A DNA stretch of 47,801 bases from the NCBI GenBank assembly GCA_023245215.1, contig JAHFKS010000005.1, positions 1 to 47,801 of the forward strand. The letters are read 5' to 3'. Below, piece after piece: positions 22,810 to 47,556 of the stretch (position 1 is its first letter; every line of letters begins with the position of its first letter). The notes below the pieces were generated by a model. That model was not told where the DNA came from. It made no database searches and worked only from the letters and a program-made list of their open reading frames with translations. The translations under genes and the position numbers were made by a program. The DNA is from Candidatus Microgenomates bacterium. Lineage in GTDB: Bacteria > Patescibacteriota > Microgenomatia > UBA1406 > GWC2-37-13.

Positions 22810-22896
22810 TAATACTAATATAATACTACTTGCTTTCCAGTGTCAAGGGATAATAAGAAAAAGTTTAAATCAATTTAAGAATCATTTAAAAAGGTA

Positions 22897-23743
22897 AGAG
22901 ATCTTACCAAACGAGTACCCAAACTTTGCCGAAGTCTGCCGGGTTAAAAGTACCATTTTTGATTGCCTGAATCATTTCGTTTCTTTTTGCCTGCATCGGT
23001 TCAGCCATAAATTTATTAAAGTCGACAAAATTTGCAAACGGCCAGTTAAAATCCGGGTTACTGCCTTCTTGTCTGCCAAGGTTAAATTTTGGAATATATA
23101 ATCCTACACGAGTTGAGCCATCAATTTTTGAAAGTTGTATTTGTGATTCGTTAGAAATTCCGCTCGTATCATTTCTATCAATATCAAAAGCAGAAAACAC
23201 AGGTGTAACATGGAGAATGCCTTGAGTATCATAGTAGTAGAGTCTGTTTGATGTTAAAAATCTTGAGGCGTTTCCGCTTGAATCAACTACTTTAAACTGT
23301 TCATTTGATCTTCGTACAGGTGAATTATCACTATTATTACCCGATTTAATAAAATCCGTATGATTACCACCGACGTTTTCCCAATCTGCAAAGATAAAAC
23401 CATTAAATTGAGAGATATTAGTTATGGTTAACTGCCATTGTTCAGGTTTTATAGGCTGAACTCCAGGAGGTAAGATCACATTACCATTGGCATCGTAGAC
23501 GCCAAGTTCAGGATGAGCTTTCCAAAAAGCATCAACCGTATTTGCAAGTTTACCAGAGCTTACATCATGATTTTGTTCTTCATTAATACTAGGCATAACA
23601 TCAACAACGTAGGGATTAAATTCAGTTATCATTGGTTTATCGAGCTGCAAAACCGGAGCGGATTCGGTTGCCGTTGACGGAATAGCTGTTGGTTCAACAG
23701 TAGGAGGAGGAGCTGTTTCCGTGATAGAAATCACCGGTGGAGT
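22897..23743. repeat. Direct repeat copy 1 (~847 bp, offset 1091 bp to copy 2)
   Basis: Encoded protein segment PPVISITETAPPP...KVWVLVW identical in both ORFs; boundaries read at both ends (gagatcttacc... to ...caccggtggagt). Confidence 0.95.
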
Positions 23744-23911
23744 GTTAACGGGTCCACAACCTTCAAGAGCCATGGCGAGAACAGCGAGAGTGCCGCCGAC
23801 TTGAAAAACTTCCTTTTTTGTCAAGAGAGGACGAACAATTATATTAGGTAATTGTGGTACCGCTCCTTTATATTTTGCTCCAACAGACTTTACTACAGAA
23901 GTTTCTGGCAT
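22904..23911 (-). CDS. Putative lipoprotein B (short paralog)
   Basis: TKKEVFQVGGTLAVLAMALEGC lipobox-like signal; C-terminal ~280 aa identical to the 23995-25662 product. Confidence 0.75.
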   Translation of the reverse strand: MPETSVVKSVGAKYKGAVPQLPNIIVRPLLTKKEVFQVGGTLAVLAMALEGCGPVNTPPVISITETAPPPTVEPTAIPSTATESAPVLQLDKPMITEFNPYVVDVMPSINEEQNHDVSSGKLANTVDAFWKAHPELGVYDANGNVILPPGVQPIKPEQWQLTITNISQFNGFIFADWENVGGNHTDFIKSGNNSDNSPVRRSNEQFKVVDSSGNASRFLTSNRLYYYDTQGILHVTPVFSAFDIDRNDTSGISNESQIQLSKIDGSTRVGLYIPKFNLGRQEGSNPDFNWPFANFVDFNKFMAEPMQAKRNEMIQAIKNGTFNPADFGKVWVLVW

Positions 23912-23987
23912 ATCTTTAATACAAATTAAGCTTATAGTATATCAAGAAGAGAGAATTAAAGCAATTTGAGAGACTTTTAGGAAGCTG

Positions 23988-24834
23988 AGAGATCTTACCA
24001 AACGAGTACCCAAACTTTGCCGAAGTCTGCCGGGTTAAAAGTACCATTTTTGATTGCCTGAATCATTTCGTTTCTTTTTGCCTGCATCGGTTCAGCCATA
24101 AATTTATTAAAGTCGACAAAATTTGCAAACGGCCAGTTAAAATCCGGGTTACTGCCTTCTTGTCTGCCAAGGTTAAATTTTGGAATATATAATCCTACAC
24201 GAGTTGAGCCATCAATTTTTGAAAGTTGTATTTGTGATTCGTTAGAAATTCCGCTCGTATCATTTCTATCAATATCAAAAGCAGAAAACACAGGTGTAAC
24301 ATGGAGAATGCCTTGAGTATCATAGTAGTAGAGTCTGTTTGATGTTAAAAATCTTGAGGCGTTTCCGCTTGAATCAACTACTTTAAACTGTTCATTTGAT
24401 CTTCGTACAGGTGAATTATCACTATTATTACCCGATTTAATAAAATCCGTATGATTACCACCGACGTTTTCCCAATCTGCAAAGATAAAACCATTAAATT
24501 GAGAGATATTAGTTATGGTTAACTGCCATTGTTCAGGTTTTATAGGCTGAACTCCAGGAGGTAAGATCACATTACCATTGGCATCGTAGACGCCAAGTTC
24601 AGGATGAGCTTTCCAAAAAGCATCAACCGTATTTGCAAGTTTACCAGAGCTTACATCATGATTTTGTTCTTCATTAATACTAGGCATAACATCAACAACG
24701 TAGGGATTAAATTCAGTTATCATTGGTTTATCGAGCTGCAAAACCGGAGCGGATTCGGTTGCCGTTGACGGAATAGCTGTTGGTTCAACAGTAGGAGGAG
24801 GAGCTGTTTCCGTGATAGAAATCACCGGTGGAGT
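23988..24834. repeat. Direct repeat copy 2 (~847 bp)
   Basis: See copy 1 at 22897-23743. Confidence 0.95.
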
Positions 24835-25662
24835 ACCTGTAGGAAGGCCTTGGGCGTGGGCGACATTCGCGTCTAAACTCAAGACTTTCCCGACCAAATC
24901 AACTAAAGTACTTTTTCCATCGCCATTAGATTTCTTTAGCCAAGAGATAGCATTTGGAGAAGTTTGGAAAGGATTACCGATAATAAATCTGCCAACGTTT
25001 TTCTGAGCCAGCTGTTCTTGGACCAATTTTTCTAAAGCCGGCTGTTTTACTAGACTGACATCTTGTACTTCAATCTTCCCATAGTTTAAGAACATGAATG
25101 TCAATTCCGAATTACCCTTGTTGTCGCCGACAATAGAATAAGTAGATATGACTGTTCCATCATCATAAACCAGGATTTTTGACTTGACTTCACCAACTAC
25201 ATTAATCGAACCATCAGGAGCAACTTCATAAGAAATTTTTTCCTTATCTAAAGTTTTTTTTAATTCGGGTGAAGCCTTAAATGAACTATAAGTTTTTCCG
25301 TTTTCCGTCCCGAAAAGGTCAAAAGATATCTTTTTTGCATTATTTTGGTTTGAATCTACTTCAAAGGAACCGTCGCTGGATTGGTTAGCTTCAAGTGTAT
25401 AACCGTTGACGATTTTACTTCCAGAGCGGGTTTCTACGGCTGATTTTAAATCAGGATTAATCTTAGAAAGATCAATTGGTTTAGCCTCCATTGGTGCGGC
25501 TGAAGCAGGCGCGCAACCTTCAAGAGCCATGGCGAGAACAGCGAGAGTGCCGCCGACTTGAAAAACTTCCTTTTTTGTCATTAGGGGGCGCGCCGCAGCA
25601 TTTGGAAGATGGGGAACGGCTCCTTTAAATCTTGCAAGAGTCTTTCTGACAATTTCTGTCAT
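23995..25662 (-). CDS. Putative lipoprotein A (long paralog with extra ~220-aa middle region)
   Basis: Same signal/lipobox TKKEVFQVGGTLAVLAMALEGC; unique central region; C-terminus identical to paralog B. Confidence 0.75.
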   Translation of the reverse strand: MTEIVRKTLARFKGAVPHLPNAAARPLMTKKEVFQVGGTLAVLAMALEGCAPASAAPMEAKPIDLSKINPDLKSAVETRSGSKIVNGYTLEANQSSDGSFEVDSNQNNAKKISFDLFGTENGKTYSSFKASPELKKTLDKEKISYEVAPDGSINVVGEVKSKILVYDDGTVISTYSIVGDNKGNSELTFMFLNYGKIEVQDVSLVKQPALEKLVQEQLAQKNVGRFIIGNPFQTSPNAISWLKKSNGDGKSTLVDLVGKVLSLDANVAHAQGLPTGTPPVISITETAPPPTVEPTAIPSTATESAPVLQLDKPMITEFNPYVVDVMPSINEEQNHDVSSGKLANTVDAFWKAHPELGVYDANGNVILPPGVQPIKPEQWQLTITNISQFNGFIFADWENVGGNHTDFIKSGNNSDNSPVRRSNEQFKVVDSSGNASRFLTSNRLYYYDTQGILHVTPVFSAFDIDRNDTSGISNESQIQLSKIDGSTRVGLYIPKFNLGRQEGSNPDFNWPFANFVDFNKFMAEPMQAKRNEMIQAIKNGTFNPADFGKVWVLVW

Positions 25663-29357: not shown

Positions 29358-30212
29358 ATGTTTGACACTCACTGTCATCTGAATTTTCAGGCTTTTGAAG
29401 GAAAGTTAGAGACGATTATTAAAGACGCGGAAGCAGTAGATGTTAATCAGATTGTTGTTCCCGGAACTGATTTGGAGACGTCGAAAAAAGCAGTGGAAAT
29501 AGCGGAAAAGTTTAAAGGGGTTTACGCAGCAGTGGGAATTCACCCGCATCATGTATTTGAGATTTATTCCAAAAGCTCGGTATCGAAATTTTTTAACTCC
29601 AGTGGGTCCCCTAGCCGTCTTCGACGGCAGACATCCCAAGTCGTAAAAAATTTAACACCTTCGCTTTTGTCAAAAAAAACCGTTGCTGTTGGTGAAGTTG
29701 GCCTTGATAGACATTATTATCAAAAAACAAAACACGAGGATTATAAAGTCGATGAGGAGTTTGTTGAATTGCAAAAGGAATTCTTAAAAGAACAGATTAA
29801 GCTGGCGGTAAAGCATGGTAAAAGCTTAATCCTCCATAATAGGGAAGCAAAACATGACATGCTGAAATTATTAAATGAGGTTTGGGACAAGAGATTAGAA
29901 GGTCGGGCGGTTTTCCACTGCTGCGAGCCGGATGAAGAGCTTTTGGAATTTGCCAAAGCTCACAAGATGTTTATCGGCGTTGACGGCGACGTAGTTTACT
30001 GGCAGGAGAAACAGGGTTTTATTAAAAAAGTTCCTCTGGAAATGCTCGTTTTTGAAACTGATTCACCTTATCTTTCTCCGTTGAGGAAGTTTCCCAACGA
30101 GCCGAAAAATATCAAAGTGATTGCCGAGTTTATTTCTGAATTAAAAAAGGTTTCTTTAAAGGAAGTTGAGGAAAAAACTACAGAAAATGCTAGAAAGTTA
30201 TTTAATATTTGA
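29358..30212 (+). CDS. tatD: TatD-family DNase/hydrolase with an in-frame insertion
   Basis: MFDTHCHLNFQAF...YAAVGIHPHH...VAVGEVGLDRHYY...LILHNREA...VFHCC...VFETDSPYLSP; start set at 29358. Confidence 0.92.
   Translation: MFDTHCHLNFQAFEGKLETIIKDAEAVDVNQIVVPGTDLETSKKAVEIAEKFKGVYAAVGIHPHHVFEIYSKSSVSKFFNSSGSPSRLRRQTSQVVKNLTPSLLSKKTVAVGEVGLDRHYYQKTKHEDYKVDEEFVELQKEFLKEQIKLAVKHGKSLILHNREAKHDMLKLLNEVWDKRLEGRAVFHCCEPDEELLEFAKAHKMFIGVDGDVVYWQEKQGFIKKVPLEMLVFETDSPYLSPLRKFPNEPKNIKVIAEFISELKKVSLKEVEEKTTENARKLFNI
29577..29654 (+). repeat. Hairpin-forming dispersed element, copy A (inside tatD)
   Basis: tcggtatcgAAATTTTTTA...agtgggtcccctaGCCGTCttcGACGGCagacatcccaag...TAAAAAATTT; matches copy B at 47440-47510. 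Confidence 0.8.
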
Positions 30213-46212: not shown

Positions 46213-46449
46213 ATGTTAGACGCAGACTTATCCAAAAGGATCAACCGTTTGATTGGCCAGCTGAAGGGGATAGAGAAGATGGTTGAGCAGAAAAGAGAGT
46301 GCCACGAGGTTTTACAGCAGATATCGGCTGTAAAAAAGGCGATTGATGGTTTATCCAAGGAAATTGTCGTTTCCGACATCTGCCGTTTGATTCCTGACGC
46401 CGATACAAAAAGGGTCAGCCAGATGGTGGAAAGAGCGATTAACCTATGA
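46213..46449 (+). CDS. CsoR/FrmR-family metal- or thiol-sensing transcriptional repressor
   Basis: RINRLIGQLKGIEKMVEQKRECHEVLQQISAVKKAIDGLSKEIVVSDICRLIPD; start set at 46213. Confidence 0.85.
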   Translation: MLDADLSKRINRLIGQLKGIEKMVEQKRECHEVLQQISAVKKAIDGLSKEIVVSDICRLIPDADTKRVSQMVERAINL

Positions 46450-47432
46450 ATGTTGAAAATGTAATCATCATCGGTGGTGGCCCGGCCGGTTTGGCCGCGG
46501 CAATTTATAACGCCAGGGCCGGCTTAAAACCCCTGGTTATTGCTGGTTCGCCGCCTGGCGGTCAGCTGACTTTGACTTCGGAAGTAGAAAACTATCCCGG
46601 CTATGAATCTATTTTGGGCCCGGAACTAATTATGAAAATGCGCAAGCACGCCGAAAAGTTTGGCGTCAGATTCATAGACAAGAATGTGATTAAGATAGAC
46701 ACCAATCTGTCTAATGGGACTCATAAGACTTATTGGACAGATGGGAATTCTGAATCTCGCGCCATCATCATTACGACCGGCGCCAAAGCGCTCTGGCTTA
46801 ACTTGCCTTCGGAACAGCGCCTACGGGGAAAAGGCGTCTCTGCCTGTGCTACCTGTGACGGTTTTTTCTTTAAAGAAAAAATTGTTGCCGTTATCGGCGG
46901 CGGCGACACAGCTATGGAAGAAGCATTAACCTTGATAAAATTCGCCAAAAAAGTATATATTATTCACCGACGTGACAGTTTTCGCGCATCAAAGATTATG
47001 CAGGAAAGAGTCCTAAAAAATCCGAAGATTGAAGTAATCTGGAACAGTGCGGTAGAAGAAATCCTTGGCAGTCTTAAAGTAGAAGGATTAAAAATCACTG
47101 GTCGGCAATTAAAGGTCGATGGCGTCTTTATCGCCATCGGTCATAAACCCGACACTGAGGTATTTAACGGTAAAGTAGAGATGGATAAGAAGGGCTACAT
47201 TTTAACCACAGATAGGGTAGCGTTGGAAAATTTAAACATTGGAAATTCAATGAAAATTGAAAATTTAAAATTGAAAATTCCGAAATTTGATTTAAATTAC
47301 GCATCGCAAACTTCGGTTAAAGGTGTTTTTGCCGCCGGAGACTGTGTTGACTATATCTATAAGCAGGCAGCCACGGCTGTCGGAATGGGAGTGGCAGCGG
47401 CATTGGAAGTTGAAAAGTATTTATCAATTTGA
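46446..47432 (+). CDS. trxB: Thioredoxin reductase
   Basis: IIIGGGPAGLAAAIYNARAGLKPLVIAG, CATCDGFFFKEKIVAVIGGGDTAMEEALTL, GVFAAGDCVDYIYKQAATAVGMG. Confidence 0.95.
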   Translation: MNVENVIIIGGGPAGLAAAIYNARAGLKPLVIAGSPPGGQLTLTSEVENYPGYESILGPELIMKMRKHAEKFGVRFIDKNVIKIDTNLSNGTHKTYWTDGNSESRAIIITTGAKALWLNLPSEQRLRGKGVSACATCDGFFFKEKIVAVIGGGDTAMEEALTLIKFAKKVYIIHRRDSFRASKIMQERVLKNPKIEVIWNSAVEEILGSLKVEGLKITGRQLKVDGVFIAIGHKPDTEVFNGKVEMDKKGYILTTDRVALENLNIGNSMKIENLKLKIPKFDLNYASQTSVKGVFAAGDCVDYIYKQAATAVGMGVAAALEVEKYLSI

Positions 47433-47439
47433 AAAAGGT

Positions 47440-47510
47440 TCGGTACCGAAATTTTTATGCTTAGTGGGAGCCCTCCGTCTTCGACGGAATCCCAAGGCGC
47501 AAAAAATTTA
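47440..47510 (+). repeat. Hairpin-forming dispersed element, copy B (trxB-gdhA intergenic)
   Basis: tcggtaccgAAATTTTTatgcttagTGGGAgccctCCGTCttcGACGGaaTCCCAaggcgcAAAAAATTTa. Confidence 0.8.
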
Positions 47511-47556
47511 GTACTCTTACCTTTTTATTAATAATTTATAATTTTTTCTAAAAAAT

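Follow-up and report, generated by a model that had tools for sequence, protein, structure and literature searches.

A family of palindromic elements dispersed between genes and in frame within genes of Candidatus Roizmanbacteria

The hairpin-forming element found in the tatD gene of a Candidatus Microgenomates genome proved to be one copy of a family dispersed in Candidatus Roizmanbacteria, which we take, with a probability of roughly 0.75, to consist of non-autonomous palindromic mobile elements whose movement we infer from comparisons. The copies share a conserved, covarying hairpin and lie either between genes, often immediately after a stop codon, or in frame inside mostly conserved ones, and some orthologous sites are empty. 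The original prediction had likened the tatD segment to the Rickettsia palindromic elements (RPE), which also insert in frame, but in a different lineage. The likeness is supported by the dispersal, the in-frame copies, the empty nadE sites and the compensatory changes described below, and the lineage is indeed another one: the nearest named relatives of this TatD come from Candidatus Roizmanbacteria and other Microgenomates MAGs (Patescibacteria), which are unrelated to Rickettsia.

The window, i.e. the whole stretch of 47,801 nucleotides that was analysed, carries tatD on the plus strand at 29358-30212. The open reading frame is intact and matches the TatD_DNase family (Pfam PF01026) from end to end (residues 2-283 of 284, E=3e-64). 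The DNA initially reported as the element was found at 29577-29654 (plus strand), but these bounds were too narrow. The outer stem AAAAGC/GCTTTT also belongs to the element, since it is common to other copies or covaries in them, and the full element therefore covers 29571-29668 (98 nt, plus strand), encodes KSSVSKFFNSSGSPSRLRRQTSQVVKNLTPSLL in frame, scores 98.7 bits with the covariance model (E=3.9e-23) and folds as single-stranded DNA with z=-4.8. Its 5′ outer arm AAAAGC (29571-29576) pairs with GCTTTT at 29663-29668; in other copies the arms covary as AAAGC/GCTTT, AAAGGT/ACCTTT or GGAGGT/ACCTCC. The 5′ inner arm AAATTTTTTA (29586-29595), with its partner TAAAAAATTT at 29644-29653, is near-invariant across all copies, and the core hairpin GCCGTC-TTC-GACGGC (29614-29628) is the variable core module of the family.

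A blastn search with the tatD copy, using the whole genome (819 kb in 36 contigs) as search space, gave E values of 8.8e-22, 7e-17, 2.3e-10 and 1.3e-3, the first for the copy in miaB and the third for the intergenic match at 47440-47510 that had been noticed at the outset; the copies thus resemble each other far beyond chance. The covariance model found five copies with E<1e-18 (next match 0.39), although it was built from six sequences, namely all five copies of this genome and one from a relative, so that the blastn values are the independent ones. Three copies are in frame (tatD, miaB and nadE) and two are intergenic. The window contains two of the five, the one in tatD and the one at 47434-47524; of the rest, contig C6 has its copy in a gene for a miaB-family methylthiotransferase and C21 in nadE, and the fifth is on C35, flanked by a glycosyltransferase gene and metK, both of these last names coming from reading of the translations. 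The intergenic copy in the window (91 nt, plus strand; 90.9 bits, E=5.2e-21; z=-3.9) begins 1 nt after the stop codon of a pyridine nucleotide-disulphide oxidoreductase gene (46446-47432, plus strand; Pfam PF07992, E=7e-49). As single-stranded DNA all five copies folded with z between -3.9 and -5.0, and none of 200 shuffles was as stable.

Across the family the element is a stem-loop of 57-104 nt. The outer stem of 5-6 bp varies in sequence from copy to copy while its complementarity is kept; inside it, a conserved unpaired TC faces TTC, followed by a variable stem of about 5 bp, the near-invariant AAATTTTTT/AAAAAATTT stem and, innermost, a variable core of several types. Compensatory changes between copies are abundant. 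In an alignment of 121 distinct rows, 22 of the 25 pairs changed on both sides, and 387 double-changed cells were counted against 110 in shuffles (0/500 shuffles reached 387), the counts being inflated by related rows in an alignment that was fitted to the model and contains some copies in both orientations. Sliding the pairing partner by 1-3 columns collapsed the signal, and the unfitted six-sequence alignment agreed, with 8 covarying pairs and 14 double-changed cells against 4.8. In three copies (L067 1501-1602, L320 1501-1604 and L322 1501-1602) a second palindrome of the CTTTCGACA(T/A)GCTCAGGA type is nested in the core.

We examined 97 distinct copies with fetched flanks and called genic those that have 25 or more residues of an open reading frame on either side. 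By this measure 39 copies are in frame inside open reading frames and 58 lie outside them. The host genes are unrelated to each other and come from more than 12 named gene families. The inserts add about 22-36 residues. HMM searches gave names to most hosts: MiaB-family methylthiotransferase, NadE, TatD, QueA, DprA, IleS, LeuS, transketolase, glutamate dehydrogenase (gdh), pyridine-nucleotide oxidoreductase, a heavy-metal P-type ATPase and an amidohydrolase, as well as Tgt at three different sites and LepA at two; the hosts at L087 and L069 matched no named family. The element is read in two main frames, one SVSKFF-like and the other RNFL-like, and in both orientations. Annotators of these bacteria should be aware that mobile DNA can account for loop insertions in genes for tRNA modification and tRNA synthetases.

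Insertion at dispersed sites is supported by nadE, whose orthologs in G002 (L253) and G016 (L252) have the site empty. The occupied nadE orthologs carry differing core types, the reverse orientation in G009 and apparently two elements in tandem in G008 (L245). In miaB the loop is short in G007 and G015 and holds other insertions in other species. The miaB loops of L274 (G008) and L280 (G005) contain a PASVIPNEVRDL peptide that seems to stem from another repeat family, so that unrelated insertions of several kinds enter one and the same loop. Three species of the genus, and two further genera, have the element at the Tgt site after ERTHEWLKRC. The same protein loops are targeted across species and genera; as many host loops vary in any case, the empty state is deduced for some genes.

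The 58 non-genic copies are mostly intergenic, and the median distance between the nearest gene 3′ end and their start is 2 nt. This position after the upstream stop codon would fit a functional RNA or DNA structure, the intergenic copies being selected bidirectional terminators or stabilisers of mRNA 3′ ends and the genic copies strays. Between tandem genes 31 of 39 copies are oriented with transcription, and a hand count puts 28 of 38 closer to the stop side than to the start side. The outer arms of intergenic copies are mostly (A/T)AAAGC/GCTTTT, whereas those of genic copies are diverse, and the ends of intergenic copies are richer in T (5.5 of 10, compared with 3.5 of 10 in genic copies). 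We nevertheless regard this explanation as unlikely, since it does not account for the 39 in-frame genic copies, the patchy presence in relatives or the five copies between divergent genes, and the siting after stop codons could come from the purging of insertions near start codons. A terminator role for intergenic copies is possible, and so is such purging. Intergenic copies contain a mean of 1.28 forward open frames (0.57 in shuffles). In three convergent gene pairs the stop codons overlap both ends of one element (L117 2001-2068, L128 1312-1378 and L074 1813-1904), as if the element had supplied or replaced both gene ends.

Arms and cores behaved differently when copies were compared within and between genomes. 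Cores are more alike within than between genomes (identity difference 0.129, P<5e-4), whereas genic arms are not homogenised (0.010, P=0.22), and two same-site pairs, nadE in G013/G014 and tgt in G009/G019, share arms (0.83) and differ in core. Palindrome arms may stay complementary through template switching. These data would suit old sites that change in place, with site-specific arms and a core overwritten by gene conversion or template switching, so that the element would be homogenising and not jumping. This, too, we consider improbable: it leaves the dispersal to unrelated sites unexplained, and apart from the two pairs, same-site arms are hardly more alike (mean identity 0.63) than those of unrelated copies (0.60). 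The low likeness favours repeated insertion or fast turnover and led us to reject the view that shared sites are generally due to vertical inheritance. The arm/core boundary was set at fixed positions, which makes the modularity reading tentative; it may point to an exchange of cores or to favoured loops being entered repeatedly. Copying of the outer arms from the host flank was not supported either, because complementarity rarely extends past the element ends (only 0-1 bp in 87 of 97 copies) and same-site arms differ.

Genic copies follow the orientation of their gene (35/39, P=3e-6), though open frames are almost as numerous on the reverse strand, and orientation is constant within contigs (68 of 75 copies with the contig majority). 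The orientation of the element was shown (STATISTICALLY) to follow the replication strand as read from GC skew. The sign of the skew over up to 20 kb is followed by 64 of 77 copies (P=3e-9; 13 against), and where skew and coding majority are in conflict, 14 of 17 copies follow the skew (P=0.013), with the qualification that coding direction is partly confounded with skew and that copies close together are not fully independent. Gene strand was therefore rejected as the cause of orientation, and replication seems to be the underlying variable. In G009, a genome of three contigs, the skew is negative at 5-53 kb of contig C3 and every copy there is on the minus strand; on C2 it is positive and the strong unpaired copies are on the plus strand. 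Much of both regions has genes on either strand, and the two strong exceptions are members of inverted pairs. Neither a target-site duplication (TSD) nor a target motif was detected (genic mean 0.28 nt, shuffled 0.31).

Bacterial miniature elements (MITEs) such as ERIC/RU-1 and Correia/NEMIS are small and non-autonomous, and some are fused in frame to genes (PMC2229807). The Roizmanbacteria element, being short, palindromic, non-autonomous and dispersed, could be one of them, derived by deletion from a DDE-transposase element and mobilised by a full-length relative that shares its terminal inverted repeats. MITEs, however, have terminal repeats and usually a TSD, whereas the outermost six pairs of the element vary between copies unlike fixed terminal repeats, a TSD is absent and the orientation tracks the replication strand, all of which makes a classical MITE very unlikely. 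Among the loci inspected, no full-length relative came to light.

At the position of the element, TatD orthologs (30 aligned, together with PDB structures) have a variable loop, and the stretch between the flanking blocks has about 39 residues in this TatD and about 17 in PDB 2gzx. The extra segment was thus confirmed by alignment, but it is no one-off, since the loop is variable family-wide and is a recurrent insertion site; other palindromes occupy it in several related species. That loop variability is all that speaks for an ordinary native protein segment with a chance likeness to intergenic DNA, a reading practically out of the question and refuted by the near-identical DNA in unrelated genes and spacers, the blastn and covariance model matches, the covariation of the hairpin and the distant TatD proteins in the PDB, which are without the segment. 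An AlphaFold2 model of TatD with the insert gave a confident fold (mean pLDDT 93), the start of the insert falling in blocks of pLDDT 61-73 and its end being modelled as a helix. The position in this predicted model agrees with a tolerated surface loop, the model being silent on activity. In another genus (L025), the TatD loop holds a palindrome related to the CTTTCGACA(T/A)GCTCAGGA type.

As to how the mobile family may move, the orientation together with the absent TSD suggests insertion into single-stranded DNA at replication forks. IS200/IS605 transposases insert into the lagging-strand template (PMC6006769), and the element is likewise tied to the replication strand and lacks a TSD, so that a single-strand mechanism would be its natural reading. 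It is conceivable, if somewhat short of probable, that the element spreads as a single-stranded DNA hairpin intermediate into single strands exposed at the fork, mobilised in trans by a Y1/HUH transposase (RAYT or IS200/IS605-like) or a similar enzyme. Genic copies would survive only if they offered a stop-free frame in phase with the gene and lay in a surface loop able to accommodate additional residues. Most likely the element is selfish and merely tolerated by its host. The strand-orientation clue makes the mechanism of palindrome movement testable.

No Y1 transposase matched in this genome. Y1 transposases are present in 33 of the 40 family genomes that carry the element and in 20 of the 33 that do not (P=0.06), and none of 30 Y1 loci was flanked by a confident match to the element; with co-occurrence so weak and no locus flanked, RAYT linkage as the mover was rejected. 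Many open reading frames of about 220 aa (L133-L162 and a family-wide search) match only the C-terminal part of Y1_Tnp and are RAYT-like; they occur in 15 of 20 genomes of the genus. We also entertain, as rather doubtful, a bolder proposal: a replication-coupled hairpin of two modules, with site-specific arms and a core overwritten genome-wide, which would act in minimal genomes as a recurrent in-frame loop-extension mutator, re-entering the same loops of housekeeping proteins across species and genera and moved by an unrecognised enzyme.

RPEs were reportedly described by Ogata et al. in 2000 and 2002, and the Wolbachia palindromic elements (WPE) by Ogata et al. in 2005. RPEs are hairpins of about 100-150 nt that lie between genes or fused in frame inside conserved genes; they form several families, are non-autonomous and have no established TSD (PMC2229807, PMC10969869). 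The Roizmanbacteria family has the same type of hairpin, the same intergenic and in-frame genic siting and the same lack of autonomy, but it is shorter and belongs to another phylum. Replication-strand orientation and arm/core modularity are described here for the Roizmanbacteria element, and we know of no report of either for RPEs. WPEs are stop-free in-frame palindromes in conserved genes, e.g. addA, addB and priA (PMC4224334); the Roizmanbacteria element shares this property in another lineage, with no homology detected in the NCBIfam and Rfam searches. Five encoded peptides had no match in NCBIfam, and nothing in Rfam came near the gathering threshold, so that a known RNA family was rejected as the identity of the element.

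With the REP/BIME/REPIN sequences and their RAYT (TnpA-REP) enzymes the element has in common the hairpin, inverted adjacent pairs and a single-strand style of orientation, and in-frame REP insertions have been reported inside tnpAREP genes (PMC6006769). Several inverted pairs 1-4 nt apart occur, for example at L103 (2001-2080/2084-2174), L092, L050 and L081, most copies being single. Unlike REPs, the element has no REPtron, is present in 1-28 and not in more than 100 copies per genome, and often lies in housekeeping genes. By eye, no conserved 5′ GT[AG]G foot stood beside the hairpin in the 97 copies; several core types contain GTGG, but the CGGAAAACAACAAACCG type does not, and the motif is not at the hairpin base. 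Judged by its lineage and by the NCBIfam and Rfam searches, the element is a separate, new family that acts like the protein-coding palindromes RPE and WPE. Searches of open-access full texts for CPR palindromic elements and Roizmanbacteria hairpin repeats turned up no description of it. Most of what is known about protein-coding palindromes comes from Rickettsia and Wolbachia, and a 2024 review considered the palindrome-to-protein process only conceivable in other prokaryotes (PMC10969869); the streamlined Patescibacteria provide an independent instance, with many copies in tens of genomes.

Within the genus the element was found in 17 of 20 genomes (197 matches), and within the family in 40 of 73 genomes and 19 of 34 genera. 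Beyond the family it is rare: when the class was sampled evenly, a match at E<=1e-5 turned up in just two genomes from outside the family. Copies are clustered in G009 (about 0.94 Mb), with about ten in 48 kb (C3, 5-53 kb) and six in 37 kb (C2, 143-180 kb). Two elements at equal spacing, L100 2001-2098 and 3400-3502 in G019 and L327 1501-1598 and 2900-3002 in G030, look identical although the two genomes are placed in different genera; recent horizontal transfer or cross-binning of a contig may be the reason. In the window itself, neighbouring genes on the minus strand contain direct repeats of 300 nt (22865-23164 and 23956-24255, 97% identical) and 77 nt (23757-23833 and 25514-25590, 95% identical), which suggest a recent tandem duplication.
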